DNA of 64,000 nucleotides, taken from contig JAVTVY010020552.1 in assembly GCA_036873755.1 (NCBI GenBank), positions 1 to 64,000 of the forward strand, read 5' to 3'. This DNA comes from Hanleya hanleyi (taxonomy: Eukaryota > Mollusca > Polyplacophora > Lepidopleurida > Hanleyidae). Of this stretch, positions 18,656-53,816 are shown piece by piece. How positions within the stretch are numbered: the stretch's first letter is position 1; each line of letters opens with the position of its first letter. The translations under genes were made by a program, and so were the position numbers. The notes under the pieces are model-generated. The model saw nothing but the letters and a program-made list of their open reading frames with translations, was not told the DNA's origin and searched no databases.

Positions 18656-21462
18656 CGCGAGTAGTATATAAAGCGTATTACAGGTCTTATTGACCTACTT
18701 TTTTGTTCCCCCCGGGTAAAATTTGTGGCGGAAATTGTGGCGGGGTTTCCCAGTGGGGGGATTCCCCAGTGGGGGTTTCCCATGACGATCACGTGATCAA
18801 GGCATGTCCTGACTTGTTCTGGGTTGTACAGTTCTGCCATGCGGAGGATGGGTACTAGTATTTCGCTGACGTCCTAGTAATAAACATAATCTATAGGTGT
18901 TGTACCATGTTAATAGGATCAGTCTAGCATCTGTACCACCCTAGTGTCGAGTGTTTATTGTCCCGTGTATCTCCGCAGAAAATCAACAAACAAAATGGCG
19001 GCTCCAGGATGGTGTGGGGACGCCCTTTCCACATCACGGCGTCGATCCTAATCATAGCGCCATCTGCACGCACTGACGCAAGGGAGACAACTCGTGTGGC
19101 CCAAGGGTATGGAAATAGCCGTGTTGGAGCTAGGGGAGCCACAAATGGTCCAATGGGATCGAGTGAGGTATCAAAGTGAAGCCTAGGTGAGGGGGCATCT
19201 AATGGGCTGGGTGTGGGGTTGAACTATCGGCATTCTGCGCATGCGCGGTGGCCCAAGGGTATGAAAATAGCCGTTTTGGAGCTAGGGGAGCCACTAATGG
19301 GCCGATGGCGTTCTATGAGGTATCAAAGTGAAGCATTCGTGAAGGGGCATATCACTGGACTAGTGGGTTGACATATCGGCATTCTGGGCATGCGCGGTGG
19401 CCGAAGGGTATGGAAATAGACGTTTTGGAGCTAGGGGAGCCCCTAATGGACCAATGGAGTCGAGTGAGGTATCAAAGTGAAGCATTCGTGAAGGGGCATC
19501 TAATGGGCTGGGTGTGGGGTTGAACTATCGGCATTCTGCGCATGCGCGGTGGCCCAAGGGTATGAAAATAACCGTTTTGGAGCTAGGGGAGCCCCTAATG
19601 GTCGAATGGGGTCGAGTGAGGTATCAAAGTGAAGCATTCGTGAAAGGACATCTGATGGGTTGGGTGTGCGGTAGGGATATCATTCTGCGCATGCGCAGAC
19701 GCAATGCGGAGCTCTCGTCCAATCAGAAGCGAGTATTTCAAATCCGTCACAGATCTCTCAGCCAATTAGCAGCGAGTATTTTGACCCGGTGCATTATGAG
19801 ACATATCCAAGATGGCGGCACGTATGTTCAAGATGGCGGCACATCCGGTGTCGAAAACTGGCCATTTCGTCGGGATGTGGTCGCCTAGTGTCGAAAACTG
19901 GACCTTGTATGGGTCCTGCTAGACGTTTTGGAGCTAGGGGAGCCCCTAATGGGCCGATGGAGTTGTATGAGGTATCAAAGTCAAGTACATTTCAAGCATG
20001 GGTGGGTGCATGTAAAATGTTTCCTGAAAAAATACGGAACACGGATTTTATCCTAAATTACGTGAAAATGCCTATATGGGGTATGGGGTGGTATAGGACC
20101 ATCCTGGGAAACCTACTTCTCGACATTTGCGGTATAGGTTGTGGGGTCTCGTTTTCTTAGTCTCGTCAAGACAAACATGATAGGAAGTGTCCCGGTACGA
20201 ATCGGTGGAATTTTTGAAAAAGTATGATATAGCCCCATATAGGCCCATACTGGGGTATAGGATCAATGTTTGTCCCCCCTGGGAAACGTACTTCTATACA
20301 TTTGCGGTAGGGTTGTGGGGTCTCGTTTTACTCGACTCGTCATGTAGAACATGATAGGAAGTGTCCCGGCACGAATCGGTGAAATTTTTGAAAAAGTACG
20401 ATATAGTCCCATATAGACATATATATATAAATATATAGTCCCATACTGGGGGTATAGGTTCAATGTTTATCCTACTGGGAAACCTACTTCTCGACATTTG
20501 CGGTAGGGTTGTGGGGTCTCGTTTTTCACGTCTCGACATTTAGAACATAATAGGAAGGGTCGCGGAGCGAATCGGTGAAATTTTTGGAAAAAGTCACCAA
20601 GGCCTGGGTAAGCCCATAGGCCTATACTGCATGGCTATGGGTGTATAGGGCCATACGGGTTGGACATGTTGGAGTCTAGGTGAGTCCCTGGTGGTCCAAT
20701 GGGGTCGAGTGAGGTCTTATTTTGAAGCTCTCGTGGAGGAGCACTTGACTACACTAATGGTTCGGCCGTGTTTAATAGTCTGCGCATGCGCAGACTGGCC
20801 CGTAGTATAGAAAGTAGGCATTTTGGGGGGGTATGTGGGTGTATGTTTGAGGTAGAGAGGGACTATTCACGGTTCGAATGGGTCGTGGAAGGCGTCAAAG
20901 TGAAGCTTGTGTGGGGTAGAGTCAGAATGGCGTGTTTTTGAATGCAAGTCGCGTCAATCTGCGCATGCGCAGTTGGTTGTAGTAAGTAAAGTGGCCATGT
21001 TGGGGCAGTGAAGGAAGGTGTTTGGGGTAGAGAGGGACCATCCTTGGTCTGAATGCGTCCTGGCAGATGTCATATTGTAGCTCTCGGGGTGTACATTCCG
21101 ATTTGAGGCATGTCCGAAGCATCTGTGACGTCATTGTTGACGTCATCAGTACGAGTAATAGCGAAAGTGGGCATTTTGGGGCAGTGAAGGAAGGTGTTTG
21201 GGGTAGAGAGAGACTATTCACGGTTCGAATGGGTCGTGGAAGGTGTCAAAGTGAAGCTTGTGTGGGGTAGAGTCAGAATGGCGTGTTTTTGAATGCAAGT
21301 CGCGTCAATCTGCGCATGCGCAGTTGGTTGTAGTTGTCATTAGTGACGTCATCGGTACGAGTAGTAGCGAAAGTGGGCATTTTGGGGCAGTGAAGGATGG
21401 ATTAGTAGTATGAAAGCGCATGTCCAGCCCCATTGACCTTGCGGCGCATTGCGCAATGAGTT

Positions 21463-21503
21463 TGCATGTGTGTGTGTATGCGTCTGTGTGTGTGTGTGTA
21501 TGC

Positions 21504-21538
<35 letters not shown>

Positions 21539-21772
21539 CATGTGTGTGTGTATGCGTCTGTGTGTATGTGTGTGTGTGTATATGTGCGTGTGTGTCTGTG
21601 CGTCTGTGTGCATGTGTGCGTACGTGTGTGTGTGTGTACGGGCGCGTGTGTGTGTATACGTCTATATGCGTGTGTTTATGCGTGTGTGTGTGTGTGTATG
21701 CGTCTCATGCGTGTGTTTGTGTGTGTGTGTGTGTGTAGGAATCTGTGTGTCTGTGTGCGTGTGTGCATGCGC
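21463..21772 (+). repeat. (TG)n tract of the left arm
   Basis: About 310 bp of TG-rich simple repeat with interspersed TATGCG and GTC. It yields long spurious ORFs rich in Cys-Val or His-Thr in most frames. Confidence 0.95.
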
Positions 21773-22074
21773 CGAGTTCTAAGAGCCCCGGAGAGAGAAC
21801 AACAACAACAAGGATGACACATGAGAGAACAACAAGAAGTTTTTGTCATATAGTTTATTATCCCCAAATTTTACATCATACCCAGGCTGGGGGAGCCGCC
21901 CTGGGTATGTTTAGTATGTTCACAGCAAAACAAATTGAAATATCAAACACCATGTTTTATTATTCAACGCATCGTCACATCAGGCACAAGTGTTTACTGA
22001 GCTCAAGTCAACGATCAGCATGTAGACATAGAGAGTATGTACGGCATGTTGTGGTATTCATCAGTGCATGGGTG

Positions 22075-22243
22075 ACGCATTCACCCGATGGAGGTGGTTG
22101 GTCGTCTTGGTAAGGAAAAACGTAACATTGGTTACCCTCTTTACCACCCATTGTGTGTTGGGGCGTTGACGATGTGCCCATCTCAAGGCATCCAATTGTT
22201 CCACTTGGCCCAGCATCATCTCTAGCGACGCCCGGTGAATGGT
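22075..22243 (-). pseudogene. Stub of a B-type zinc-finger gene (C terminus only)
   Basis: Read on the minus strand it encodes the last ~56 residues of the B-type protein (RASLEMMLGQVEQLDALRWA, then the RPNT, TNVTFF and LHRVNASPMH segments). At 22243 homology stops and a (GGT)n-like purine-rich patch begins. So the left-hand gene of element 1 has been lost except for its 3' end. The stub is informative because it keeps the sequence deleted from gene B on the opposite side. Confidence 0.85.
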
Positions 22244-22323
22244 GTTGGTGGTGTGCGGCGGTGGTGTTGGTGGAGTCGGTGGTGGTGGGTGTGGTGGTGG
22301 TAGAGTCTTTAAATCAGCGCGCG

Positions 22324-22563
22324 CCGGGGTCAAAGGTCAGTTCCGGTCACGTGAACGGAAGCGGAAGTGACCTCACAGAGGTCATATGCAAATGTCACTT
22401 TCGAGCTCTGAGCTCCACAGGCTTTGAGCTCCAAGAGCTCCGATCCAAGAAACACACTCGCAAACACACACATACACACACGCCTACATCCGGGTTCTTG
22501 TCGCTGACGTCCAAGTTGAACTGATTGTGCTAAAAATAGATCAACAGCTAGCTTGCTATAAAA
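22324..22563 (+). promoter_or_regulatory. Central spacer and promoter of zinc-finger gene A
   Basis: In order: GGGTCAAAGGTCA at 22327-22339 (a perfect DR1 nuclear-receptor site), CACGTG at 22348-22353 (E-box), ATGCAAAT at 22386-22393 (octamer), a cluster of GAGCTC words, a short (CA)n, GCTGACGTCC (CRE-like), CTAAAAATAG at 22530-22539 (exact MEF2 consensus) and TATAAAA at 22557-22563. Motifs are read directly; binding is inference. Between TATA and ATG the leader carries AAACGGCCTGGCCGTTT, a near-perfect hairpin. Confidence 0.65.
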
Positions 22564-22609
22564 AGGAAACGGCCTGGCCGTTTCATCAGACACTCTGTCA
22601 ACCACCAAG

Positions 22610-23554
22610 ATGTTCACTTGTACTGCGTGCTCGAAATCATTCACTCGCCGGCACGACTTCCGCCGCCATGAGGCTACCAAGCACGATGGAACCGCCCGGT
22701 ATAGCTGTACGATATGTAGGTCTACACTGTCGTTTCAGCGCCCAGATCATTTACAGCGCCATGAACGTTCAATTCATGGGCCACCCAAGCGTCCATGCGA
22801 AGAATGTGGTCAACTCTTCAGACGACCCAGTCAGTTAAAACGGCATGAGCGTTTGATTCATGGTCCGTCACCACGGCATGAGGGACAACTTTCCACTAAA
22901 GAGGCACCCAGGAGGGACAGATCCACTGAAGATGAACCCGGGGAGAAGAATGCCCCTGGTGATGCGATCACGGAGAGCCCGCCTATACCCATAGCTCAGA
23001 AGAGCCTAGATATCCAGCCGGTCCCTAGCATTACTGTTTCCAGTCATACGCCTGACAACAACGAAAATTTTCTGGAAGATGTTCCCAGCGATCTCTTACC
23101 CGAAGATCATCCAGTGAGTGAGATGTATCGACGCCATTGGTCCATGATCCGACACTGCTTCCACCGTCATCGCCCTATATTGAACTTGTACAATTTCCGA
23201 CTGACCGACCTCGCCCGTCAACGCAGCTACGTGGAAGCCATCTTCAATGACCAACCTACGTCCTTCACATTAAATGTAGCATTTGGGTACATCTTATGCC
23301 ATAAGATGACGCGTGAATTGTGCTATTTCTATTCCAATGCTATCAACCCAGTGTACGACCATCCTTTCACAATCACCAATCGGGCGTCGCTAGATACGAT
23401 GCTGGCCCAACTGGACACTGTGGATCCCTTGGAATGGGCCTATGAACAGCGTCCCAACACCGAGTGGATAGTAGAGAGGGTGACCAATGTCACGTTTTTC
23501 GTTACCAAGCTGACCGACCACCCCCATCGGCTGAATGTGCCACCCTTGCACTGA
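22610..23554 (+). CDS. Zinc-finger gene A (type A), intact, 314 aa
   Basis: Intronless ORF; the ATG lies 53 bp after the start of a TATA box. Three C2H2 fingers occupy residues 4-25 (C4, C7, H20, H25), 33-56 (C33, C36, H51, H56, with an unusually long 14-residue middle) and 63-84 (C63, C66, H79, H84); all use the four-residue His spacing. Residues ~85-165 form an acidic, Pro/Ser/Glu-rich linker (TKEAPRRDRSTEDEPGE). Residues ~175-313 are a conserved domain shared by every copy in the window, with HCFHRHRP, LRSY/QRSYVEAIF, LNVAFGYILCHKM, FYSNAINPVYD, QRPNTEW and VTNVTFFVTKL. I do not know a named family for it. The fingers suggest nucleic-acid binding in the nucleus. It is the only intact full-length type A copy. 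Gene B follows 150 bp downstream on the same strand. Confidence 0.8.
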   Translation: MFTCTACSKSFTRRHDFRRHEATKHDGTARYSCTICRSTLSFQRPDHLQRHERSIHGPPKRPCEECGQLFRRPSQLKRHERLIHGPSPRHEGQLSTKEAPRRDRSTEDEPGEKNAPGDAITESPPIPIAQKSLDIQPVPSITVSSHTPDNNENFLEDVPSDLLPEDHPVSEMYRRHWSMIRHCFHRHRPILNLYNFRLTDLARQRSYVEAIFNDQPTSFTLNVAFGYILCHKMTRELCYFYSNAINPVYDHPFTITNRASLDTMLAQLDTVDPLEWAYEQRPNTEWIVERVTNVTFFVTKLTDHPHRLNVPPLH

Positions 23555-23624
23555 TGAATACCATAGCATGCAATACATACTCTATATGTCTGGTCCTCGA
23601 CTTAGGGTAGTTGAACTGAGTGTG

Positions 23625-23658
23625 CTAAAAATAGATCACCAGCTAGCGTACTATAAAA
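23625..23658 (+). promoter_or_regulatory. Promoter of zinc-finger gene B
   Basis: CTAAAAATAG at 23625-23634 and TATAAAA at 23652-23658, 27 bp apart, with the ATG 53 bp after the TATA start: the same geometry as gene A. It lies only 70 bp after the stop of gene A, so B has its own promoter rather than being co-transcribed by necessity. Confidence 0.7.
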
Positions 23659-23704
23659 GGGAAGCGGCCTGGTCGTTTCATCGGATACTCTGTCAACCAC
23701 CAAG

Positions 23705-24682
23705 ATGTTCACTTGCACAACTTGCCAGAAGCAGTTTATTCGCCCAGAAGATTTGCGACGACACGAGGCCTCCATCCACAACGGTGCACGATATACTTGT
23801 ATAACCTGCGCACGGTCATTTAATCGGGAAGATGCTTTACTGCGCCATGAACGCTCACTCCACGAGGGTGCGACGGAACAATGTAATGAATGTGGTCAAC
23901 TCTTCAAACGACCCAGACAGTTAAGACGGCACCAACGTTTGATTCATAGTCCATCACCACGGTATGCGCGACAACCTTCTACTATAGAGGAGCCGCGGAA
24001 GGTCAGGCCCAGTGAAGATAAGCCCGGGGAGACGAACGCCACTGGTGATGCGATGACGGAGAGCCCGCCTATACCCACAGTTCAGAAGAGCCTGGATATC
24101 CAGCCGGACCCAAGCGTTACGGTTTCGAGTCATTCGCCTGACAACATCGAACATTTTCTGGTCGAGCCCATAAATGTTCCTGGCGATCTCTTACAGGACA
24201 ACCATCCAGTGAGTGACGACGATCGGGGCCATTGGTCTATGACACGGTACTGTTTCCACCGTCATCGCCCTATTCAAGATATCTACAATTTCCCACTGAC
24301 CAAACTCACCCGTCTACGCAGCTACGTGGAAGCCATCTTCGAAGATCAAACTACGGCCTTCAAATTGAGTGTCGCTTTCGGGTACATCTTACGTCACAAA
24401 AGGACGGACCAGTTACGGTATTATTACCCCAGTGCCAACAACCTTGTGTTTGACCTGCCGTTTACCATCATTCACCGGGCGTCGCTAGAGATGATGCTGG
24501 CCCAAGTGGAACAATTGGATGCCTTGAGATGGGCACATCGTCAACCCAAAGAGGGTAACCAATGTTACGTTTTTCCTTACCAAGACGACCAACCACCTCC
24601 ATCGGGTGAATGCGTCACCCATGCACTGATGAATACCACAACATGCCGTACATACTCTCTATGTCTACATGCTGATCGTTGA
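23705..24682 (+). CDS. Zinc-finger gene B (type B), C-terminal frameshift, 325 aa
   Basis: Same architecture as gene A but a distinct paralogue. Fingers are FTCTTCQKQF..., YTCITCARSF... and EQCNECGQLF..., all C-x2-C-x12-H-x4-H, followed by an acidic linker and the shared domain (HCFHRHRPIQDIYNFPLTKL, LRSYVEAIF, FGYILRHKR, RYYYPSANN). At about 24545 the frame breaks. Compared with the stub at 22075-22243, 23 bp encoding part of the RPNTQWV segment are replaced by 3 bp, a net loss of 20 bp. The last ~36 residues are therefore out of frame, the TNVTFFLTK motif is lost and the stop is later than in intact copies. AATAAA signals follow at 24729 and 24832. Probably damaged, though the fingers are whole. 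Confidence 0.8.
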   Translation: MFTCTTCQKQFIRPEDLRRHEASIHNGARYTCITCARSFNREDALLRHERSLHEGATEQCNECGQLFKRPRQLRRHQRLIHSPSPRYARQPSTIEEPRKVRPSEDKPGETNATGDAMTESPPIPTVQKSLDIQPDPSVTVSSHSPDNIEHFLVEPINVPGDLLQDNHPVSDDDRGHWSMTRYCFHRHRPIQDIYNFPLTKLTRLRSYVEAIFEDQTTAFKLSVAFGYILRHKRTDQLRYYYPSANNLVFDLPFTIIHRASLEMMLAQVEQLDALRWAHRQPKEGNQCYVFPYQDDQPPPSGECVTHALMNTTTCRTYSLCLHADR

Positions 24683-24831
24683 CTTGAGCTCAGTAAACAC
24701 TTGTGCCTGATGTGACGATGCGTTGAATAATAAAACATGGTGTTTTGATATTTCAATTTGTTTTGCTGTGAACATACTAAACATACCCAGGGCGGCTCCC
24801 CCAGCCTGGGTATGATGTAAAATTTGGGGAT

Positions 24832-24837
24832 AATAAA
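24832..24837 (+). terminator. Candidate polyadenylation signals after gene B (24729 and 24832)
   Basis: AATAAA at 24729-24734 and again at 24832-24837, before the GTTGTTGTTCTCTC repeats. The second, in the context GGGATAATAAACTATATGA, is kept after D2 (43866), which argues that it is the functional one. Confidence 0.5.
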
Positions 24838-24924
24838 CTATATGACAAAAACTTCTTGTTGTTCTCTCATGTGTCATCCTTGTTGTTGTTGTTCTCTCTC
24901 CGGGGCTCTTAGAACTCGGCGCAT

Positions 24925-25275
24925 GCACACACGCACACAGACACATAGACTCCTACACACACACACACAAACACACGCATGAGACGCATACACACACACA
25001 CGCATAAACACACGCATATAGACGTATACACACACACACGCGCGTACACACACACACACGTACGCACACATGCACACAGACACACAGACACACACGCACA
25101 TATACACACACACACATACACACACACGTACACGCAAGCACACATGCACACAGACACACAGACACACACACACACACACACAGACGCATACACACACACA
25201 TGCACGCACACACACACACACACACACACAGACGCATACACACACACACAGACGCATACACACACACATGCATAC
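24925..25275 (+). repeat. (CA)n tract of the right arm
   Basis: Mirror of the (TG)n tract in the left arm, about 350 bp, with the same interspersed ACGCATA and GAC words. Confidence 0.95.
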
Positions 25276-26831
25276 TCATTGCGCAATGCGCCGCAAGGTC
25301 AATGGGGCTCGACATGCGCTTTCATACTACTAATCCATCCTTCACTGCCCCAAAATGCCCACTTTCGCTACTACTCGTACCGATGACGTCACTAATGACG
25401 TCACAGATGATGCGAACATCCCTTAAATCGGGATCTACACCCTAAGCGCTACAAAATGGCACCTCACACGATCCATTCGGACCAAGGATGGTCCCTCTCT
25501 ACCCCAAACACCTTCCTTCACTGCCCCAAAATGCCCACTTTCGCTACTACTCGTACTGATGACGTCCACTGATGACGTCACAGATGACGCGGACATCCCT
25601 AAAATGAAGATGTACACCCCGAGAGCTACAACATGACACCTCACACGACGCATTCGGACCAAGGATGGTCCCTCTCTACCCCAAACACCTACCTGCACTG
25701 CCCCAAAATGTTCACTTTCGCTACTACTCGTACCAATGACGTCATCGATGACGTCACAGATGAAGCGAACATCCCTAAAATGGAGATGTACACCCCGAGA
25801 GCTACAACATGACACCTCACACAACGCATTCGGACCAAGGATGGTCCCTCTCTACCCCAAATACCTACCTGCACTGCCCCAACATGGCCACTTTACTTAC
25901 TACAACCAACGGCGCATGCGCAGATTGACGCGACTTGCATTCAAAAACACGCCATTCTGACTCTACCCCACACAAGCTTCACTTTGACACCTTCCACGAC
26001 CCATTCGAACCGTGAATAGTCTCTCTCTACCCCAAACACCTTCCTTCACTGCCCCAAAATGCCCACTTTCGCTATTACTCGTACTGATGACGTCAACAAT
26101 GACGTCACAGATGCTTGGGACATGCCTCAAATCGGAATGTACACCCCGAGAGCTACAAGATGACATCTGCCAGGACGCATTCAGACCAAGGATGGTCCCT
26201 CTCTACCCCAAACACCTTCCTTCACTGCCCCAACATGGCCCCTTTACTTACTACAACCAACTGCGCATGCGCAGATTGACGCGACTTGCATTCAAAAACA
26301 CGCCATTCTGACTCTACCCCACACAAGCTTCACTTTGACACCTTCCACGACCCATTCGAACCGTGAATAGTCCCTCTCTACCTCAAACATACACCCACAT
26401 ACCCCGCCAAAATGCCTACTTTCTATACTACGGGCCAGTCTGCGCATGCGCAGACTATTGAACACATGCGAACCATTAGTGTAGTCAAGTGCTCCTCCAC
26501 GAGAGCTTCAAAATAAGACCTCACTCGACCCCATTGGACCACCAGGGACTCACCTAGACTCCAACATGTCCAACCCGTATGGCCCTGTACACCCATAGCC
26601 ATGCAGTATAGGCCTATGGGCCTACCCAGGCCTTGGTGACTTTTTCCAAAAATTTCACCGATTCGCTCCGCGACCCTTCCTATTATGTTCTAAATGTCGA
26701 GAAGTGAAAAACGAGACCCCACAACCCTACCGCAAATGTCGAGAAGTAGGTTTCCCAGTAGGATAAACATTGAACCTATACCCCCAGTATGGGACTATAT
26801 ATTTATATATATATGTCTATATGGGACTATA

Positions 26832-27233
26832 CAACCACCTCGCTGGGGGTCTAATAACACCCCAGCCACCAGTCAGATTTTTGGACCGGATTCGGGGCCT
26901 TCGCGCACATCGCCGGAAGTGACATCATATATAGTAAAATAGATGTTTAGCGAAAATTTTGATTACTTTTCAAGTCTGCATAATACCTCCGTTGACCTAG
27001 CGTTAAAAAGAATTATCTGGAGATAATTTTCCCTGTTTATCTGGACAGAGCATATGAAAAGTAGTTCACTCATGTGCAACACTAAAGGAGTTGTTTGGTC
27101 GGATTCAAACTGAACCGTGCGTTGGTTGGTTTCCCCTATGCGTCATAGCAACGTAGTAAAGGTCAACTTCCGCTATTGGAGGCAGGGATGTTATTGGAGC
27201 CTGCGAAATGGAGCATGCGCTGTGGGGAGGTTG
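26832..27233. mobile_element. 402 bp insertion in the right arm, 9 bp target duplication
   Basis: GGGACTATA at 26823-26831 is repeated at 27234-27242. The left arm of element 1 keeps the unoccupied site (ATGGGACTATATCGTAC when read in this orientation). The insert starts CAACCACC and ends GGAGGTTG, short imperfect inverted ends. An 8-9 bp duplication fits hAT or Mutator-like non-autonomous elements. It has no ORF and postdates the inverted duplication of the arms. Confidence 0.85.
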
Positions 27234-28879
27234 GGGACTATATCGTACTTTTTCAAAAATTTCACCGATTCGTGCCGGGACTCTTCCTATCATGTTCTAC
27301 ATGACGAGACGAGTAAAACGAGACCCCACAACCCTACCGCAAATGTATAGAAGTACGTTTCCCAGGGGGGACAAACATTGATCCTATACTCCAGTATGGG
27401 CCTATATGGGGCTATAACGTACTTTTTCAAAAATTTCACCGATTCGTGCCGGGACACTTCCTATCATGTTTGTCTTGACGAGACTAAGAAAACGAGACCC
27501 CACAACCTATACCGCAAATGTCGAGAAGTAGGTTTCCCAGGATGGTCCTATACCACCCCATACCCCATATAGGCATTTTCACGTAATTTAGGATAAAGTC
27601 CGTGTTCCGTATTTTTTCAGGAAAAATTTTACATGCACCCACCCATGCTTGAAATATACTTGACTTTGATACCTCATACAACTCCATCGGCCCATTAGGG
27701 GCTCCCCTAGCTCCAAAACGTCTAGCAGGACCCATACAAGGTCCAGTTTTCGACACTAGGTGACCACACCCCGACGAAATGGCCAGTTTTCGACACCGGA
27801 TGTGCCGCCATCTTGAACATACGTGCCGCCATCTTGGATATGTCTCATAATGCACCGGGTCAAAATACTCGCTGGTAATTGGCTGAGAGATCTGTGACGG
27901 ATTTGAAATACTCGCTTCTGATTGGACGAGAGCTCCGCATTGCGTCTGCGCATGCGCAGAATGATATCCCTACCGCACACCCAACCCATCAGATGTCCTT
28001 TCACGAATGCTTCACTTTGATACCTCACTCGACCCCATTCGACCATTAGGGGCTCCCCTAGCTCCAAAACGGTTATTTTCATACCCTTGGGCCACCGCGC
28101 ATGCGCAGAATGCCGATAGTTCAACCCCACACCCAGCCCATTAGATGCCCCTTCACGAATGCTTCACTTTGATACCTCATAGAACTCCATCGGCCCATTA
28201 GTGGCTCCCCTAGCTCCAAAACGGCTATTTTCATACCCTTGGGCCACCGCGCATGCGCAGAATGCCGATAGTTCAACCCCACACCCAGCCCATCAGATGC
28301 CCCTTCACATAAGCTTCACTTTGATACCTCACTCGATCCCATTGGACCATTTGTGGCTCCCCTAGCTCCAACACGGCTATTTCCATACCCTTGGGCCACA
28401 CGAGTTGTCTCCCTTGCGTCAGTGCGTGCAGATGGCGCTATGGTTAGGATCGACGCCGTGATGTGGAAAGGGCGTCCCCACACCATCCTGGAGCCGCCAT
28501 TTTGTTTGTTGATTTTCTGCGGAGATACACGGGACAATAAACACTCGACACTAGGGTGGTACAGATGCTAGACTGATCCTATTAACATGGTACAACACCT
28601 ATAGATTATGTTTATTACTAGGACGTCAGCGAAATACTAGTACCCATCCTCCGCATGGCAGAACTGTACAACCCAGAACAAGTCAGGACATGCCTTGATC
28701 ACGTGATCGTCATGGGAAACCCCCACTGGGGAATCCCCCCACTGGGAAACCCCGCCACAATTTCCGCCACAAATTTTACCCGGGGGGGAACAAAAAAGTA
28801 GGTCAATAAGACCTGTAATACGCTTTATATACTACTTACGCGGTGCAATCTTGGTAATTCGCCGTCAGATTTGATTTAT

Positions 28880-41536: not shown

Positions 41537-41574
<38 letters not shown>

Positions 41575-41667: not shown

Positions 41668-41717
<50 letters not shown>

Positions 41718-41906
41718 CATGCACGCAAGCATACAGGCCTGGTAGAAGTCGGGGATGGAGGAACATTCGTGAACATCCTAGGGTACACGGTGCACCACAG
41801 GAGTGTGCACCTGTTTGACGTCCGCGTTTACATCCGGGTTCTTGTCGCTGACGTCCGCGCCTACATTCGGGTTCTTGTCGCTGACGTCCAAGTTGAACTG
41901 ATTGTG
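40869..41906. repeat. Central spacer of copy 2, symmetric, between divergent genes C and D1
   Basis: From outside in: tandem CTGACGTCC...TTCTTGTCG units of ~31-33 bp on both sides; a mirrored GTGCACC/GGTGCAC segment; (TG)n at 41041-41280; a perfect 28 bp palindrome at 41282-41309 centred on CCGCGG; then a unique ~150 bp stretch with GGGTCAAAGGTCC (DR1-like), CACGTG and GAGCTC words; then (CA)n at 41455-41726. So genes C and D1 are driven outward from one bidirectional centre. Confidence 0.8.
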
Positions 41907-41940
41907 CTAAAAATAGATCAACAGCTAGCTTGCTATAAAA
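41907..41940 (+). promoter_or_regulatory. Promoter of D1
   Basis: CTAAAAATAG at 41907-41916, TATAAAA at 41934-41940 and ATG at 41987: the 27/53 bp geometry. Three GACGTC-containing repeats lie just upstream. Confidence 0.65.
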
Positions 41941-41986
41941 AGGAAACGGCCTGGCCGTTTCATCAGACACTCTGTCAACCACCAAG

Positions 41987-42601: not shown

Positions 42602-42603
42602 AA
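42570..42603 (+). promoter_or_regulatory. Promoter of D2, overlapping the 3' end of D1
   Basis: CTAAAAATAG at 42570-42579 and TATAAAA at 42597-42603, with ATG at 42650. The same bases encode the last residues and the stop codon of D1. Confidence 0.7.
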
Positions 42604-42649
42604 GGGAAGCGGCCTTGCCGTTTCATCAGACACTCTGTCAACCACCAAG

Positions 42650-43624: not shown

Positions 43625-45171
43625 GGATATGTTTCCTCAACGGTATCCTGGCCTGCCCGATGACGATTAGAACAAACGGTTCAGAGCGAACATGGCCGAA
43701 GATGGAACTTTCTGAAATGGCGACTTCTGATTGGACAAGAGTAGCCGAGAATACATCTAACGGACAGGAACGAATATGACAGATGCAAATGGTGGCCTCT
43801 GATAGGACAAGAATCTTCTTGAATTGTAAGATCCCCCAGCGTGGGTATGATGTAACATTGGGGAGAATAAACTATATGAAAAAAACTTCTTGTTGTTGTT
43901 GTTCTCTCATGTGTCATCCTTGTTGTTGTTGCTGTTGTTGTTCTCTCTCCGGCCTATATAATGGCGTTATGTTAGAGTGTTAAGGTGTAACGACGGGCGT
44001 CGACGGGCGTCACTGCATTTCGAAGAATTAGTGACAATTCCATGGAATATCAGAGCTTTTGAGCTGGCGTTGGTGGGCGTTGCTACAACATGACACCTCA
44101 CACGACGCATTCGCACCGCGGATGGTCCATCTCTACCCAAAATACCTTCCTTCACTGCTAAAAAATGATGCTACTACTCGTCCGTTACCGATCGTCACAG
44201 ATGACGCCATCCCTCAAATCGGGGTCTACCCCCGAGAACTACAAGATCCCTCCCACGACGCATCGGGGTGACATCTCTACCCCAAATACCTTCCTTCACT
44301 GCCCCAAAATGGCCACTTTACTTACTACAACCAACTGCGCATGCGCAGATTGACGCGACTTGCACGCAGATTGAAAAACACACCATTCTGACTCTACCCC
44401 ACACAAGCTTCACTTTGACACCTTCCACGACCCATTCGGACCCATAGCGGTGCATCTCTACCCCAAACACACACCCACATACCCCCCAAAATGCCTGCTT
44501 TCTATACTACGGGCCAGACTGCGCATGCGCAGACTATTGAACACGGACGAACCATTAGTCCAGTCGGATGCTCCTCCACGAGAGCTTCAAAATAAGACCT
44601 CATACGACACCATAGGACCATTAGGGACTCACCTAGACCCCAACACGTCCACCCCGTATGGGCCTATACTCCCATAGCCATGCAGTATAGGCCTATGGGC
44701 CTACCCAGGCCTCGCTGACTTTTTCCAAAAATTTCACCGTTTCGCTCCAGGACCCTTCCCATCGTGTTCTAAATGACGAGACGTGAAAAACAAATCCAAA
44801 CAACCATACCGCAAATGTCTAGAAGTGGGTTTCCCAGTGGGACAAACATTGGTCCTATACCACAGTATGGGACTATATGGGTCTATATGGGTCTCGGTGA
44901 CTTTTTTCAAAAATTTCACCGATTCGTGCCGGGACACTTCCTATCATGTTCTAAATGACGAGACTAAGAAAACAAATCCAAACAACCATACCGCAAATGT
45001 ATAGAAGTAGGTTTCCCAGTGGGACAAACATTGGTCCTATACCTCAGTATGGGCCGAGATGGGTCTATATATGGGTCTCGGTGACTTTTTTCAAGAATTT
45101 CACCGATTCGTGCCGGGACACTTCCTATCGTGTTCTAAATGACGAGACTAAGAAAACAAATCCAACAAATC
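43625..45171 (-). repeat. Truncated right arm of copy 2
   Basis: 3' flank of D2, GTTGTTGTTCTCTC repeats, gamma units (about 44090-44340), the beta/gamma spacer and two to three beta units (about 44740-45160). At ~45171 it is cut inside a beta unit and joined to the 3' flank of gene E (CTGAACCGTTTG). The alpha block and the terminus are missing. This is the junction of the tandem duplication. Confidence 0.8.
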
Positions 45172-45230
45172 TGAACCGTTTGTTCTAATCGTCATCGGGC
45201 AGGCCAGGATACCGTTGAGGAAACATATCC

Positions 45231-46274
45231 TCAGATAGTTGTTTGCGCATTCTGAGTATCTATCAGTGCATGGGTGAATACTTTCATCCGATGGGGGTGG
45301 TGGATCAGCTTGGTAAGGAAAAACGTAACATTGGTCACCTTCTTCGCTGTCCACTTGGTGTTGGGTCGTTGTTGTTGGGCCCATCCCAAGACATCCAATT
45401 GTTCCAGTTTCTCCAGCATCATCTCTAGTGACCTCCGGTTAATGATGGTAAACGGTTGGTCGTACACTGGGTTGATGGCACTGGAATAGAAATAGCGCAA
45501 TTCACCCGTCATCTTATGGCATAAGATGTACCCAAATGCTACATTTAATGTGAAGGCCGTAGGTTGGTCATTGAAGATGGTTTCCACGTAGCTGCGTAGA
45601 CGGGTGAGGTTGGTCAGTGGAAAATTGTAGATATCTTGAATAGGGCGATGACGGTGGAAACAGTGCCGTGTCATGGACCAATGGCGCCGAGAGATGTCAC
45701 TCTCTGGATGATCTTCGGGTAAGAGATCGCTAGGAACATTTATGGGCTCGTCCAGAAAATGTTCGATGTATGACGTATGACTCGAAACCGTAACGGTGGG
45801 GTCCGGCTGGAAATCCAGGCTCTTCCCAACTGTGGGTATAGGCAGGCTCTCCGTCATCGCATCACCAGTGGCGTTCGTCTTCCCGGGCTTATCTTCACTG
45901 GGGCTGACCTTCCGCGGCTCCTCTTCAGTAGGAAGTTGTCGCCAAAACCGTAGAGACGGACCATGAATCAAACGCTCATGCCGTTTTAACTGACTGGGTC
46001 GTTTGAAGAGTTGACCACAATCCTTACATTGTTTCGTCGCGCCCTCGTGGAATGAGCGCTCGTGGCGCAGTAAATGATCCTCCCGATTAAATGACCGTGC
46101 GCAGGTTATACAAGTACGTTCATGGCGCTGTAAATGATCTGGGCGCTGAAACGACAGTGTAGGCCTACATATCGTACAGCTATACCGGGCGGTTCCATCG
46201 TGCTTGGTAGCCTCATGGCGGCGCAAGTCGTGCCGGCGAGTGAATGATTTCGAGCACGTAGTACAAGTGAACAT
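45231..46274 (-). CDS. Zinc-finger gene E, A/B chimera, 347 aa
   Basis: Near-identical to gene C with the same fusion point and the same broken second finger. Differences include RRHDLRRH (C has RRLDLRRH), NVAFGYI (C has NVAIGYI) and AQQQRPNTKW. Since C and E share the fusion, it happened before the tandem duplication. Promoter at 46321-46354 with the usual spacing. Diverges from E2 across the central spacer of copy 3. Confidence 0.78.
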   Translation of the reverse strand: MFTCTTCSKSFTRRHDLRRHEATKHDGTARYSCTICRPTLSFQRPDHLQRHERTCITCARSFNREDHLLRHERSFHEGATKQCKDCGQLFKRPSQLKRHERLIHGPSLRFWRQLPTEEEPRKVSPSEDKPGKTNATGDAMTESLPIPTVGKSLDFQPDPTVTVSSHTSYIEHFLDEPINVPSDLLPEDHPESDISRRHWSMTRHCFHRHRPIQDIYNFPLTNLTRLRSYVETIFNDQPTAFTLNVAFGYILCHKMTGELRYFYSSAINPVYDQPFTIINRRSLEMMLEKLEQLDVLGWAQQQRPNTKWTAKKVTNVTFFLTKLIHHPHRMKVFTHALIDTQNAQTTI

Positions 46275-46320
46275 CTTGGTGGTTGATAGAGTGTCTGATG
46301 AAACGGCCAGGCCGTTTCCT

Positions 46321-46354
46321 TTTTATAGCAAGCTAGCTGTTGATCTATTTATAG
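46321..46354 (-). promoter_or_regulatory. Promoter of gene E
   Basis: On the minus strand CTATAAATAG is followed 27 bp later by TATAAAA (46327-46321) and 53 bp later by the ATG at 46274. Same as the promoter of gene C. Confidence 0.65.
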
Positions 46355-46545
46355 CACAATCAGTTCAACTTGGACGTCAGCGACAAGAACCCGAATGCAG
46401 GCGCGGACGTCAGCGACAAGAACCCGGATGTAGACGCGGACGTCAAACAGGTGCACGCTCCTGTGGTGCACCGTGTACCCTAGGATGTTCACGAATGTTC
46501 CACCATCCCCGACTTCTACCAGGCCTGTATGCTTGCGTGTATGCA

Positions 46546-46584
<39 letters not shown>

Positions 46585-46629
46585 CGTGTATGTGTGTGTA
46601 TGCGCCTCTGTGTATGCGTGTGTGTTTGG

Positions 46630-46660
<31 letters not shown>

Positions 46661-47018
46661 CGTCTGTGTAAGCATGTGTGCATGCGTCTGTGTGTGCGTG
46701 TGGGTGTATGCGTGTGTATATGCGTGTGTGTGTATGCGTGCGTGCGTGTATGCAAGTGTGTGTAAAGGTTTCCACCGCGGTGGAAACCTTTGCGCGCCGG
46801 GGTCAAAGGTCCGTTCCGGTCACGTGAACGGAAACGGAAGTGACCTCACAGAGGTCATATGCAAATGTCACTTCCGAGCTCTGAGCTCCACAGGATTTGA
46901 GCTCCAAGAGCTCCGATCCAAGAAACACACTCGCAAGCACACACATACACAGACGCAGGCATACACACATACACATACACACGCACATGCACGCACACGC
47001 ACACACACACAACCGCCT

Positions 47019-47049
<31 letters not shown>

Positions 47050-47366
47050 AACACACATTTGCATACACACACACACACGCTCGCATACACGGACGCATAC
47101 ACACACTTGCATACACGCACGCACGCATACACACGCACGCATACACACACACACGCACACACACACACACACACATGCATGCACGCAAGCATACAGGCCT
47201 GGTAGAAGTCGGGGATGGAGGAACATTCGTGAACATCCTAGGGTACACGGTGCACCACAGGAGCGTGCACCTGTTTGACGTCCGCGTCTACATCCGGGTT
47301 CTTGTCGCTGACGTCCGCGCCTACATTCGGGTTCTTGTCGCTGACGTCCAAGTTGAACTGATTGTG
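46355..47366. repeat. Central spacer of copy 3
   Basis: Same organisation as the spacer of copy 2: GACGTC repeats, (TG)n at about 46551-46760, a 28 bp perfect palindrome at 46764-46791, a unique stretch with the DR1-like site, CACGTG and an ATGCAAAT octamer near 46859 (mutated to ATGCAAGT in copy 2), and (CA)n to about 47176. Confidence 0.8.
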
Positions 47367-47446
47367 CTAAAAATAGATCAACAGCTAGCTTGCTATAAAA
47401 AGGAAACGGCCTGGCCGTTTCATCAGACACTCTGTCAACCACCAAG

Positions 47447-48725
47447 ATGTTCACTTGTACTACGTGCTCGAAATCATTCACTCGCCGGCACGACTTGCGC
47501 CGCCATGAGGCTACCAAGCACGACGGAACCGCCCGGTATAGCTGTACGATATGTAGGCCTACACTGTCGTTTCAGCGCCCAGATCATTTACAGCGCCATG
47601 AACGTTCAATTCATGGGCCACCCAAGCGTCCATGCGAAGAATGCGGTCAACTCTTCAAACGACCCAGTCAGTTAAAACGGCATGAGCGTTTGATTCATGG
47701 TCCGTCACCACGGCATGAGGGACAACTTTCCACTAAAGAGGCACCCAGGAGGGACAGATCCACTGAAGATGAACCCGGGGAGGAGAATGCCACTGGTGAT
47801 GCGATCACGGAGAGCCCGCCTATACCCACAGCTCAGAAGAGCCTAGATTACAAGCGTCTAGTCCGTCATTCATAATCCAGCCGTCGTCCATTAGAGAATA
47901 TCCGCGTCCATAATCCAAAGACCTATTCCATTTCCATATAACAGTATTAGCACCAAATTCAAAAAGACAAAAGTATATATAAACATAGGCTTGTTTCCTG
48001 CAAGAGAGAAGCGGTCAACAATTTTCAATGATGCCGGCAAGACATCATGATGTTCCAAAATATCAAATCCGTATCGCTGATCAGTATTCTTAATCCATAA
48101 TATTCGTTGTAAAGTCGTCATCTAAAGAATGATGTATCTCAGTCACGCTTTTGATTGTGACTGTTCATATGAGTACCATGAGGATCTTGAAGTACATAGG
48201 TTCATACGGCCCCTAGCCCCGGGTTAAGCGGAATTAGACACAAGTTACGAAACGTAGCGCCATAGATCTTGCACGCTACGTTCGTATTTTGCTATCAGCA
48301 TGCGATATGTATCGCCAAATTTGCGAAACTTTGAGTGGAGGCGCTTGGTGGAATAGCCCTGTTTTATAAGTTTCTGCAACAATGTTTTGTGACGTTGATT
48401 AAAATCATCACATTTAACACAGGATCTAGCAAATGCTACTAAGCGAGATATGTATACGCCATATGCAGGTCCCACTGGAATATTACTATCCAGAAAGGGA
48501 TAGTTTACGATGTCGAAATTGTAATCATCTCTTTTGTCATAAAGTCGACGAGAGCCGGTCCCTAGCATTACTGTTTCCAGTCATACGCCTGACAACAACG
48601 AACATTTTCTGGAAGATGCGGTGGATGTTCCCAGCGATCTCTTACCCGAAGATCATCCAGTGAGTGAGATGTATCGACACCATTGGTCCATGATCCGACA
48701 CTGCTTCCACCGTCATCGCCCTATA
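47447..48725 (+). pseudogene. Zinc-finger gene E2 (type A), interrupted by a retroelement fragment
   Basis: Promoter (CTAAAAATAG 47367-47376, TATAAAA 47394-47400) and three intact type A fingers, then the acidic linker. At ~47850, after KSLD, foreign sequence enters and the frame stops at 47875. The gene resumes at ~48553 (CCGGTCCCTAGCATTACTG) and reaches the same deletion junction as D1 at about 48725, in front of the promoter of F. It was therefore already C-terminally deleted when hit. Confidence 0.85.
47850..48552 (-). mobile_element. ~700 bp retroelement fragment inserted in E2
   Basis: The minus strand encodes about 100 residues with LYDKRDDYNFDIVNYPFLDS, then PAYGVYISRLVAFARSC and YSTKRLHSKFRKF. 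As I recall, very similar segments (LYDKRDDF-F-IVNFPHL, PAYGVYISQLIR) occur downstream of the reverse transcriptase in a widespread invertebrate retroelement group; I cannot name the family with certainty. No target duplication is visible, and a few bases of the host gene (ATCC-region) are missing at the site. Confidence 0.65.
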
Positions 48726-48729
48726 TGTG

Positions 48730-48763
48730 CTAAAAATAGATCAACAGCTAGCGTGCTATAAAA
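48730..48763 (+). promoter_or_regulatory. Promoter of gene F
   Basis: CTAAAAATAG at 48730-48739, TATAAAA at 48757-48763 and ATG at 48810. Same geometry as the others. Confidence 0.7.
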
Positions 48764-48809
48764 GGGAAGCGGCCTTGCCGTTTCATCAGACACTCTGTCA
48801 ACCACCAAG

Positions 48810-49751
48810 ATGTTCACTTGCACAACTTGCCAGAAGCAGTTTACTCGTCTAGATAATTTACGACGCCACGAGGCCTCCACCCACAAGGATGCACGGTATA
48901 CTTGTATAACCTGCGCACGGTCATTTAATCGGGAGGATCATTTACTGCGCCACGAAAGCTCATTCCACGAGGGCGCGACGGAACAATGTCAGGATTGTGG
49001 TCAACTCTTCAAACGACCCAGTCAGTTAAAACGGCATGAGCGTTTGATTCATGGTCCGTCTCTACGGTTTTGGCGACAACTTCCTACTGAAGAGGAGCCG
49101 CGGAATGTCAGACCCAGTGAAGATAAGCCCGGGAAGACGAACGCCACTGGTGATGCGATGACGGAGAGCCCGCCTATACCCACAGTTGGGAAGAGCCTGG
49201 ATTTGCAGCCGGACCCCACCGTTACGGTTTCGAGTCATACGTCATACATCGAACATTTTCTGGACGAGCCCATAAATGTTCCTAGCGATCTCTTACCCGA
49301 ATATCATCCAGAGAGTGACATGTCTCGGCGCCATTGGACCATGACACGGCACTGTTTCCACCGTCATCGCCCTATTCAAGATATCTACAATTTCCCACTG
49401 ACCAAGCTCACCCGTCTACGCAGCTACGTGGAAACCATCTTTAATGACCAACCTACGGCCTTCACATTAAATGTAGCATTTGGGTACATCTTATGCCATA
49501 AGATGACGGATGAATTGCGCTATTTCTATTCCAGTGCCATCCACCCAGTGTACGACCAACCGTTTACCATCATTGACCGGAGGTCACTAGAGATGATGCT
49601 GGACCAAGTGGAACAATTGGATGTCTTGGGATTGGCCCAACAACAACGACCCAACACCAAGTGGACAGTGAAGAGGGTGACCAATGTTACGTTTTTCCTT
49701 ACCAAGCTGATCCACCACTGCCATCGGTTGAATGCGTCACTCGTGCACTGA
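48810..49751 (+). CDS. Zinc-finger gene F (type B), intact, 313 aa
   Basis: Three C2H2 fingers, the acidic linker and the full C-terminal domain: HCFHRHRPIQDIYNFPLTKL, LRSYVETIF, LNVAFGYILCHKM, FYSSAIHPVYD, QRPNTKW, VTNVTFFLTKL. It ends at LNASLVH, matching the end of the stub at 22075 (VNASPMH) and of gene A (VPPLH), so it is the best-preserved type B copy and gives the reference for the ends of B, C, D2 and E. It lies directly before the complete right arm. Role unknown; DNA or RNA binding is likely from the fingers. Confidence 0.82.
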   Translation: MFTCTTCQKQFTRLDNLRRHEASTHKDARYTCITCARSFNREDHLLRHESSFHEGATEQCQDCGQLFKRPSQLKRHERLIHGPSLRFWRQLPTEEEPRNVRPSEDKPGKTNATGDAMTESPPIPTVGKSLDLQPDPTVTVSSHTSYIEHFLDEPINVPSDLLPEYHPESDMSRRHWTMTRHCFHRHRPIQDIYNFPLTKLTRLRSYVETIFNDQPTAFTLNVAFGYILCHKMTDELRYFYSSAIHPVYDQPFTIIDRRSLEMMLDQVEQLDVLGLAQQQRPNTKWTVKRVTNVTFFLTKLIHHCHRLNASLVH

Positions 49752-52700
49752 TGAATACTCAGAATGCGCAAACAACTATCTGAGGATATGTTGCCTCAAC
49801 GGTATCCTGGCCTGCCCGATGACGATTAGAACAAACGGTTCAGAGCGAACATGGCCGAAGCTGGAACTTTCTGAAATGTCGACTTCTGATTGGACAAGAG
49901 TAACCGAGAATACATCTAACGGACAAGAACGAATATGACAGATGCAAATGGTGGCCTCTGATTGACAAGAATCTTTCTTAGTTTGTAATGAGCATCTAAC
50001 GGGCCCCAGCGTGGGTATGATGTAACATTGTGTGGCATCAAGCCAACATGGTTGAAAACTCTTGTTGTTGTTGTTCTCTCATGTGTCATCCTTGTTGTTG
50101 TTGCTGTTGTTACTTTCCTCCGGTCTATATCATGGCGTTATGTTAGAGTGTTAAGGTGTAACGACGGGCGTCACTGCATTTCGAAGAATTAGTGACAATT
50201 CCATGGAATATCAGAGCTTTTGAGCTATTTCACCAGGGCGTTGAAGCATTAAGAATGGCGTTGGTGGGCGTTGCTACAACATGACACCTCACACGACGCA
50301 TTCGCACCGCGGATGGTCCATCTCTACCCAAAACACTGCTAAAAAATGCCCACTTTCGCTACTACTCGTACTGATGACGTTACCGATGGCGTCACAGATG
50401 ACGCGAACATCCCTCAAATCGGGGTCTACACCGCGAGAACTACAAGATGACACCTCCCACGACGCATTCGGGGTGAGAATGGAGCATCTCTACCCCAAAT
50501 ACCTTCCTTCACTGCCCCAAAATGTCCACTTTCGCTACTACTCGTAGTGATGACGTCATCGATGACGTCACAGATGACGGGAACATCCCTCAAATCGGAA
50601 TGTACACCCCGAAAACTACAAAATGACACCTCCCAGGACGCATTCGGACCAAGGATGGTCCATCTCGACCCCAAATACCTTCATGTACTGCCCCAAAATG
50701 GCCACTTTACTTACTACAACCAACTGCGCATGCGCAGATTAACGCGACTTGCACTTAAAAATACACCATTCTGACTCTAACCCACACAAGCTTCACTTTG
50801 ACACCTTCCACGACCCATTCGGATCCATAGCGGTCCATCTCTACCCCAAACACACACCCACATACCCCCCAAAATGCCTGCTTTCTATACTACGGGCCAG
50901 ACTGCGCATGCGCAGACTATTGAACACGGACGAACCATTAGTCCAGTCGGATGCTCCTCCACGAGAGCTTCAAAATAAGACCTCATACGACACCATAGGA
51001 CCATTAGGGACTCACCTAGATCCCAACACGTCCACCCCGTATGGGCCTATACTCCCATAGCCATGCAGTATAGGCCTATGGGCCTACCCAGGCCTCGGTG
51101 ACTTTTTCCAAAAATTTCACCGTTTCGCTCCAGGACCCTTCCCATCGTGTTCTAAATGACGAGACGTGAAAAACAAATCCAAACAACCATACCGCAAATG
51201 TCTAGAAGTGGGTTTCCCAGTGGGACAAACATTGGTCCTATACCACAGTATGGGACTATATGGGTCTATATGGGTCTCGGTGACTTTTTTCAAAACTTTC
51301 ACCGATTCGTGCCGGGACACTTCCTATCATGTTGGTCTTGACGAGACTAAGAAAACAAATCCAAACAACCATACCGCAAATGTCTAGAAGTAGGTTTCCC
51401 AGTGGGACAAACATTGGTCCTATACCCCAGTATGGGACTATATGGGTCTATATGGGTCTCGGTGACTTTTTTCCAAAATTTCACCGTTTCGCTCCGGGAC
51501 ACTTCCTATCGTGTTCTAAATGACGAGACTAAGAAAACAAATCCAAATAACCATACCGCAAATGTATAGACGTAGGTTTCCCAGTGGGACAAACATCGGT
51601 CCTATACCCCTAGTATGGGACTATATGGGCTACATGGTACTTTTCCAAAAATTTCAACGATTCGCTCCGCGACACTTCCTGTCATGTTTGTCTTGACGAG
51701 ACTAAGAAAACGAGACCCCACAACCTATACCGCAGATGTCGAGAAGTAGGTTTCCCAGGATGGTCCTATACCCCCATACCCCATATAGGCATTTTCCGTA
51801 ATTTAGGATAAAGTCCGTGTTCCGTATTTTTTCAGGAAAAATTTTACATACACCCACCCTGGAACTAGGGGGAGATAACTCTATTGATAGGCCAGCCCCG
51901 TTAAGCCCGGCGACCTATATACCCCTCATACCCCATAAAGGCATTTTCCGGGATTTTTCGATAAAGTCCGTGTTCCGTTTTGGGGTTTTTTCAGGAAATT
52001 TTTTACATGCACCCACCCATGACTGGATGCCCCTTCACATAGGCTTCACATTGATACCTCATACAACTCCATCGGCCTATTAGGGGTTCCCCTAGATCCC
52101 AAAACGTCTATTTTCATACCCTTTGGCCGCCGCGCATGCGCAGAATGCAGATATTTCAACCCCACACCCAGCCCATCAAATGCTCCTTCACGAATGCTTC
52201 ACTTTGATACCTCATATGACCCCATTGGTCCATTAGGGACTCCCCTAGCTCCAAAACGTCTATTTTCATACCCTTTGGCCACCGCGCACGCGCAGAATGC
52301 CGATATTTCAATCCCACACCCAGCCCATCAGATGCCCCTTCACGAATGCTTCACACTGATACCTCATATGACCCCATTGGATCATTAGGGGCTCACCTAA
52401 ACCCTAAAACGTCTATTTCCATACCCTTTTCCCACAATTCCCTGTCTGCGCATGCGCAGAATGGTGACAACGCTCGAGCCACTAGCCCAGTCAGATGCCC
52501 CCTCACATAGGCTTCACATTGATACCTCACTCGACACGATCGGATCATTAGGGGCTCCCCTAGATCCTAAAACGTCTATTTCCATACCCTTTTCCCACAA
52601 TTCCCTGTCTGCGCATGCGCAGAATGGTGACAACGGCCGAGCCACTAGTCCAGTCAGATGCCTCCTCACATAGGCTTCACATTGATACCTCATACAACTC

Positions 52701-53816
52701 CATTGGACCATTAGGGACTCCCCTAGATCCCAAATCGTCTATTTCCATACCCTTTGGCCATCGCGCATGCGCAGAATGCCGATATTTCAATCCCACACCC
52801 AGCCCAACAGATGTCCCTTCACGAATGCTTCACATTGATACCTCATATGACCCCATTGGACCATTAGTGGCTCCCCTACATCCCAAAACGTCTATTTCCA
52901 TACCCTTTGGCCACCGCGCATGCGCAGAATGCCGATATTTCAACCCCACACCCAATTTCTGCGCATGCACAGAATGGTGACAACGGCCGAGCCACTAGTC
53001 CAGTCAGATGCCTCCTCACATAGGCTTCACATTGATACCTCATACAACTCCATTGGACCATTAGGGACTCCCCTAGATCCCAAAACGTCTATTTCCATAC
53101 CCTTTGGCCACCGCGCATGCGCAGAATGCCGATATTTCAATCCCACATCCAGCCCATCAGATGCCCCTTCACGAATGCTTCACATTGATACCTCACTCGA
53201 TCCAATCGGCCCACTCGTGGCTCACCTACATCCCAAAACGTCTATTTCCATACACTTTTCCCACAATTCCCTGCCTGCGCATGCGTAGAATGGTGACAAC
53301 GCTCGAGCCACTAGTCCAGTCAGATGCCCCCTCACATAGGCTTCACATTGATACCTCATACAACTCCATCGGCCCATTAGGGGCTCCCCTAGATCCAAAA
53401 ACGTCTATTTCCATACCCTTTTCCCACAATTCCCTGTCTGCGCATGCGCAGAATGGTGACAACGCTCGAGCCACTAGTCCAGCCAGATGCCCCTTCATGA
53501 ATGCTTCACATGGATACCTCATATGACCCCATCGGCTCATTAGTGACTCCCCTAGCTCCAAAACGTCTATTTCCATACCCTTTGGCCATCACGCATGCGC
53601 AGAATGCCGATATTTCAACCCCACACCCAGCCCATCAGATGCCCCTTCACGAATGCTTCACTTTGATACCTCACTCGACCCCATCGGTCCACTAGCGGTC
53701 CCTACAGATTGCCGAACACTTTCACGAAAATCCACGGTTTTGGGACTAATTTCGGTCCGCGGAGGCAGACCGCATCACCGCCAGACCGCATCACCGCGGA
53801 GAAATACATGCCCCCA
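49752..53816 (-). repeat. Right arm of the compound element
   Basis: Mirror of 36085-39740. Gamma units about 50280-50700, beta units about 51090-51800, alpha units about 52010-53700 with TGCGCATGCGCAGA near 52446, 52610, 52915 and 53439. Alpha units alternate between two sequence variants (CCTTTGGCC...GCCGATATTTC and CCTTTTCCCACAATTCCCTG...GGTGACAACG), so the block has grown by duplication of two-unit pairs. Confidence 0.85.

Follow-up and report, generated by a model that had tools for sequence, protein, structure and literature searches.

Mavericks, also called polintons, have been described with a protein-primed polymerase and a retrovirus-like integrase, and the duplication of their target site is made by the integrase. 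In vertebrate Mavericks, going by the excerpted text of PMC8097293, the commonest end motif is (AGT)2//(ACT)2, found together with 6-bp duplications. Here we describe a 64,000-nucleotide stretch of the polyplacophoran mollusc Hanleya hanleyi (assembly GCA_036873755.1, contig JAVTVY010020552.1, positions 1 to 64,000 of the forward strand; hereafter the window) that contains two large palindromic elements, E1 and E2, each carrying genes for C2H2 zinc-finger (ZF) proteins with a C-terminal domain resembling a terminal protein (TP). We consider it likely that both are non-autonomous Maverick/polinton derivatives of the adintovirus class that encode a stand-alone ZF-TP protein and became palindromic by fold-back copying. 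The kinship to Mavericks/polintons is well supported, and we infer mobilisation in trans and the fold-back origin. An earlier sequence-only reading of the locus had proposed a distinct family of unknown affiliation, which is not required given the Maverick-type ends and 6-bp duplication of E1 and the TP-like nature of the domain.

Termini and mirrored anatomy of E1 and E2

E1 spans 10177 bp (18660..28836) between AGTAGT...ACTACT termini, and its arms align from the first base (self-comparison, offset 0). It opens with AGTAGTATATAAA at 18660 and is closed at 28836 by the complement of the same sequence, and the alignment of the arms stops at the same base as the terminal motif. Directly outside lie two copies of TACGCG (18654..18659 and 28837..28842, both on the + strand), the flanks being identical at exactly 6 bp and not at 3-5 or 7-12. 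Identical six-base flanks are found in only one of the 86 AGTAGT/ACTACT pairs that lie 3-30 kb apart in the window, that one being E1, where about 0.02 would be expected. The terminal inverted repeats (18660..19095, +; 28400..28836, -) share 99.5% identity across 437 aligned bp. These termini and this duplication are those reported for Mavericks/polintons. The limits first proposed for E1, 18656-28842, thus give way to exact ends at 18660 and 28836 with the 6-bp duplications just outside them.

E2 (35934..53963, ~18.0 kb), delimited by its termini and by self-comparison, likewise runs from AGTAGT to ACTACT, without a matching target duplication. It had been read as two copies of the family, 36085-45171 and 45172-53816, making three with E1; there are two elements, the supposed second and third copies being one element whose core is tandemly duplicated and whose real tips, AGTAGT at 35934 and ACTACT at 53963, each lie about 150 bp farther out. 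Three independent copies are ruled out, as a second, tandem copy of 39684-45165 begins at 45170 and the outer arms pair across the whole element (36239-38080 with 52954-51101, at 86.0%). The two core copies (39684..45165 and 45170..51546, both +, the second interrupted at ~47848-48553) agree in self-comparison at 98.0% (39684-42388 with 45170-47848), 92.1% (42393-44319 with 48553-50532) and 91.7% (44083-45165 with 50440-51546), and at the junction 45169/45170 a beta repeat runs directly into the start of the core.

The long inverted arms, the alpha, beta and gamma arrays, the (TG/CA)n tracts and the C2H2 genes that had been noticed in the sequence are all borne out by self-comparison, Tandem Repeats Finder (TRF) and open reading frames (ORFs). 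Some inverted pair covers 76% of the 10177 bases of E1 and 92% of the 18030 bases of E2, off-register repeat pairings being counted in both figures and the duplicated core in the second. Four main pairings make up the arms of E1, 18660-19547 with 28836-27948 (95.6%), 19248-20410 with 28399-27234 (95.9%), 20402-21334 with 26831-25899 (98.6%) and 20779-22244 with 25924-24466 (82.6%), weaker rows of the self-comparison being treated as off-register repeats; in E2 a further pairing joins 37751-40630 to 51776-48899 (89.0%). Alpha arrays with a 152-bp unit lie at 19096..19672 (+) and 27972..28399 (-) in E1, and a gamma array with a 176-bp unit at 25338..26389 (+) is mirrored at ~20779-21400; (TG)n stands at 21467..21765 and (CA)n at 24926..25268 (both +). 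E2 has alpha arrays at 36175..37154 (+) and 52322..53583 (-), beta arrays with a 183/367-bp unit at 37419..38448 (+) and 51094..51758 (-), and a gamma array at 38807..39244 (+). The single plan proposed for all copies holds for the mirror anatomy but not for a uniform order, the (TG/CA)n tract separating the gene 3' ends from gamma in E1, whereas in E2 it lies upstream of the gene starts, between divergent genes.

On the central side of the alpha array, both arms of E1 hold a near-identical 161-aa stop-to-stop ORF (19675-20160, +; 27484-27969, -) for which six-frame scans of E1 gave no Pfam match, no dedicated search of that ORF having been made. An 18-base pattern drawn from the alpha repeat had no match in viral contigs and two single matches in bacterial genomes, by our reckoning no more than chance. 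Rfam gave no match at gathering scores, and no tRNA was found.

Stand-alone ZF-TP genes and the relatives of their C-terminal domain

The genes had been described as divergent; they are more than a divergent pair, with two tandem + genes and a left remnant in E1 and one - and two + genes in each core unit of E2. ORFs and alignment give E1 gene 1 (22610..23554, +) as an intact ORF of 314 aa from MFTC with an RPNT motif, and gene 2 (23705..24682, +) as frameshifted, the deletion responsible having taken out the RPN motif; a third gene, pointing leftward, survives as no more than the end of its TP-like domain (22094..22237, -; tblastn and alignment). The first core unit of E2 carries genes c (39745..40788, -), g (41987..42601, +, truncated within the TP-like domain) and d (42650..43624, +), and the second unit their respective duplicates e (45231..46274, -), h (47447..47875, +, cut by an insertion, from ORF and self-comparison) and f (48810..49751, +). 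The insertion in gene h (47848-48553) holds a 111-aa minus-strand ORF that has no Pfam match above cut-off and that we take to resemble the C-termini of reverse transcriptases.

The C-terminal domain, which the sequence-only reading had called uncharacterised, is not an orphan. It is present in 65 longer database proteins (P0003-P0067). Most of the long ones run on from it to an OTU-like motif and to motifs of family-B DNA polymerases, with OTU-like, exonuclease and palm parts in one protein. Alignment and motif counts show the domain directly ahead of the OTU motif. OTU is assigned here from motif and position; the 50 structural matches listed for a 980-aa model contain no OTU fold, an absence that excludes nothing. 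The relatives share RPN-Ser/Thr within the domain (motif counts), and a C2H2-like match occurs near the start of 36 of 67 proteins. Organism names accompany 11 of the 65, all cnidarian (Actinostola, Actinia, Exaiptasia, Paramuricea, Porites), and these 11 bear only such labels as "zinc finger", "hypothetical" or "uncharacterized" protein. At other loci, no relative was found in viral contigs with the window protein, P0001 or alignments A2 and A3, and none in genome contigs with A2. Between polymerase motifs A and B, 34 of 35 long proteins have a Vsr-like GCxWH segment, and many of the predicted sequences of the family break near motif B, perhaps at an intron.

An AlphaFold2 model of the domain of gene f (predicted local distance difference test score, pLDDT, 81) has the order beta-alpha-beta-beta-alpha-beta, with a four-stranded sheet and two helices; in addition there is a short strand at 114-116, and helix 2 is split in two. 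The sheet and helix count are as given for the TP domain in the excerpted text of PMC11071308, the order of strands and helices in a TP topology being our own reading beyond those counts. The predicted fold resembles, at middling scores, the little-finger domains of Y-family polymerases; among viral structures in BFVD it is matched best by A0A7D4VFN9, a C2H2 protein from Drosophila-associated adintovirus 2. RPN-Ser/Thr occupies model residues 142-145, between a helix at 134-141 and a strand at 147-166, and is predicted to stand at the place expected of the DNA-linking residue, between helix 2 and the last strand; in gene f the predicted linking Thr is encoded at 49656-49658. By alignment and model, the C-terminal domain of the window genes corresponds to the TP-like domain that zinc-finger/OTU/PolB proteins have in their N-terminal part.

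In E1 gene 1 and E2 gene f the stop after the TP-like domain falls at the same position, ahead of the OTU motif, and a one-base insertion extends genes c, d and e past it. Because this stop position is common to both elements, the stand-alone ZF-TP form is probably older than the split between them. A missing exon was considered and rejected: the aligned genes show no conserved GT donor 3' of the domain, and none of the tblastn rows extends as far as the OTU motif.

The sequence-only reading had found no recognisable mobility gene and thought the elements possibly non-autonomous, and neither tblastn nor six-frame Pfam scans detected one. The 67 related proteins, used as tblastn queries for PolB, gave 562 rows from 65 queries, all of them within E1 or E2. 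Leaving aside 24 rows from three queries that lack the OTU motif, none extends as far as that motif. Because no gene for a protein-primed PolB was found, E1 and E2 are not autonomous Mavericks. At E<=1e-4, six-frame scans covering E2 and bases 18660-28602 of E1 gave no Pfam rve integrase, integrase sequences not being among the queries, and no match for capsid, ATPase or protease, capsid models being possibly absent from Pfam. The scans returned zinc fingers only, at a sensitivity limited enough, in long minus-strand frames, to miss the zinc-finger gene at 45231-46322.

Origin of the palindromes and competing explanations

We propose that the ends kept by E1 and E2 would be those that an element's integrase and protein-primed polymerase recognise, and that the encoded ZF-TP would correspond to the N-terminal portion of a ZF-TP-OTU-PolB protein, lacking its OTU protease and polymerase. 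PolB and integrase would be supplied in trans by a related autonomous element. The first nucleotide would be carried on the Thr of RPNT, the TP, anchored to DNA by the zinc fingers, would prime synthesis at either end, and the integrase would insert the copy, giving the 6-bp duplication. During strand-displacement copying the displaced strand would have folded back and been copied, yielding a molecule joined head to head, both of whose ends are the same. E1 was probably inserted as a palindrome, because the palindrome runs to both near-identical termini within one 6-bp duplication.

The activity of the TP, its linking residue, the dependence on a helper and the DNA target of the fingers are parts of this scheme that we infer, although the fingers presumably bind DNA. 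Two 9-mer targets, predicted by a zinc-finger recognition code, were not enriched in the E1 arms or in E2 against 20 shuffles, a crude test that lends no support to self-binding; outside the elements, at up to two mismatches, they matched 50 times against a shuffle maximum of 34 and 48 times against 42. More tentatively, the two elements could belong to a class of helper-dependent palindromic Maverick satellites with a DNA-bound priming protein of their own: the polymerase-free ZF-TP would mark the satellite ends for protein-primed copying by a helper polymerase, and might also interfere with that helper.

The AGTAGT/ACTACT tips of E2 reach 153 and 151 bp beyond a shared block and are, by alignment, unlike one another and unlike those of E1. 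The check on exact ends and target duplications that the sequence-only reading had proposed comes out positive for E1, with TACGCG on both flanks, but negative for E2, where AACGCC and CTTGGT do not match; E2 could have arisen by recombination between two elements, or one of its ends may have been replaced.

A reading that is possible but that we doubt has the ZF-TP genes as mere passengers, in which case E1 and E2 would be decayed Mavericks whose remaining genes were removed by deletions and inverted duplications, with no active product and with a mirror plan acquired after insertion. In the excerpted text of one survey, 96% of vertebrate Maverick loci were degraded (PMC8097293), and here E1 gene 2 is frameshifted, the third E1 gene is a remnant and genes g and h of E2 are truncated. 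Tests of selection are divided. The ratio of nonsynonymous to synonymous substitution rates (dN/dS) was calculated for each of the 28 pairs among 8 genes, and neutral evolution was simulated for 8 gene pairs drawn from 5 genes, with the TP and ZF parts treated separately (16 tests, 2000 runs each), in a design that ignores relatedness and gene conversion and whose gene pairs are not independent. Amino-acid differences fell below neutral (<=20 of 2000 simulations) in 8 of the 16: E1 gene 1 against gene 2 (TP 0, ZF 0), the TP part of E1 gene 2 against d (4) and f (1), the ZF part of E1 gene 1 against d (0), c (14) and f (0), and that of c against d (0), all comparisons of the gene 2 TP part here including its frameshifted tail. 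The other eight gave 64 to 2000 of 2000, not clearly below neutral; they include the TP part of E1 gene 1 against d (64), f (116) and c (239), and the duplicates d and f, which show no constraint (TP 1617). With the frameshifted tail removed, the TP part of E1 gene 2 gave 2 (E1 gene 1), 34 (d), 7 (f) and 24 (c) of 2000, and because the evidence for selection is weaker in this form our confidence is slightly lowered. Purifying selection on the ZF-TP genes is partial, and part of the constraint may be older than the loss of the polymerase. Against decay stand the E1 palindrome, which reaches both termini inside one 6-bp duplication with ends 99.5% identical, the stop common to E1 and E2, and the several comparisons with fewer amino-acid changes than neutral.

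Foldback-type elements have giant inverted arms with subterminal repeat arrays, which the arms and arrays of E1 and E2 recall, and a separate foldback or palindromic transposon family that captured a ZF-TP fragment and moves by an unrelated transposase would also agree with the failure to detect a Maverick enzyme and with the unmatched flanks of E2. We nevertheless think it improbable, as the Maverick motif and exactly 6-bp duplication of E1, on the one hand, and a replication domain of the Maverick class, on the other, would then be two independent coincidences. Palindromes are also a known class of assembly error, yet an origin from chimeric or fold-back reads is very unlikely indeed: a simple fold-back read is disfavoured because the arms differ in sequence and repeat number (82.6-98.6% in the main E1 pairings, 99.5% at the tips), the target duplication lies outside both arms, and the internal copies of E2, 92-98% alike, are too diverged.

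Neighbourhood, significance and comparison with known systems

Other repeats and mobile sequences share the window, as located by TRF and ORF analysis. A satellite array with a 145-bp unit in ~48 copies (1-6885) extends off the left end of the window, a minisatellite with a 51/103-bp unit (28914-29381) begins ~70 bp past the right end of E1, and 31-bp tandem repeats lie near the right end of the window (63341-63589). A reverse-transcriptase ORF with a GIY-YIG domain (29823-31076, -) is Penelope-like; among the best 120 of its 473 matches, nine of ten organism names are bivalve (Mytilus, Saccostrea, Pinctada, Crassostrea), at 45-48% identity, the tenth being a symbiont metagenome-assembled genome. 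At 33149-34882 (+) a weak reverse-transcriptase match (E 0.087) lies near a Phage_integrase tyrosine-recombinase fragment (E 1e-6), which we take to be perhaps a decayed DIRS/Ngaro-type element.

Searches of the open-access literature, one of them swamped by general zinc-finger papers, listed no non-autonomous palindromic Mavericks with a stand-alone TP gene. If other copies confirm the present reading, such elements would offer a natural experiment on which protein-primed machinery Mavericks need in cis, a fossil record of the fold-back errors made when animal Mavericks replicate and possibly an inherited defective-interfering system; were they satellites, they would be an integrated, inherited counterpart of defective interfering genomes. 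A role is also suggested for the domain, which in the 11 named database proteins goes under such uninformative labels only.

Compared with Mavericks/polintons as excerpted in PMC8097293, E1 has the same (AGT)2//(ACT)2 ends, 6-bp duplication and terminal inverted repeats, but arms of ~3.6-4.4 kb as against terminal inverted repeats of 46-1447 bp. The N-terminus of the Maverick polymerase is related to the TP-like domain of the window genes; unlike E1 and E2, Mavericks carry PolB, integrase, ATPase, protease and capsid genes, none of which was found here, and the mirror plan belongs to E1 and E2. The ZF/TP-like/OTU/PolB proteins have the same domain, with RPN-Ser/Thr and in many cases C2H2 fingers ahead of it, whereas the window genes end before the OTU motif. 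Adintoviruses, in the excerpted text of PMC11071296, encode a hexon and an integrase, which were not found in E1 or E2, although it is an adintovirus C2H2 protein that gives the best viral structural match to the window domain. In a polinton of the coral Stylophora pistillata the TP is, as in the window genes, separate from the OTU-polymerase; unlike in E1 and E2, the polymerase lies in the same element, and the excerpted text mentions no palindrome (PMC11071308). For the fold-back step, adeno-associated virus (AAV) yields snap-back subgenomes with part of the replication gene (PMC8235507), resembling E1 and E2 in the linear viral genome, the snap-back form and the partial replication gene and differing in that they are found in particles rather than as integrated elements. 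E1 fits the snap-back trait of one natural end kept twice, its ends agreeing at 99.5% over the 437 aligned bp, which the tips of E2 do not. AAV is not protein-primed, and the symmetric recombinants of adenovirus are a closer parallel.

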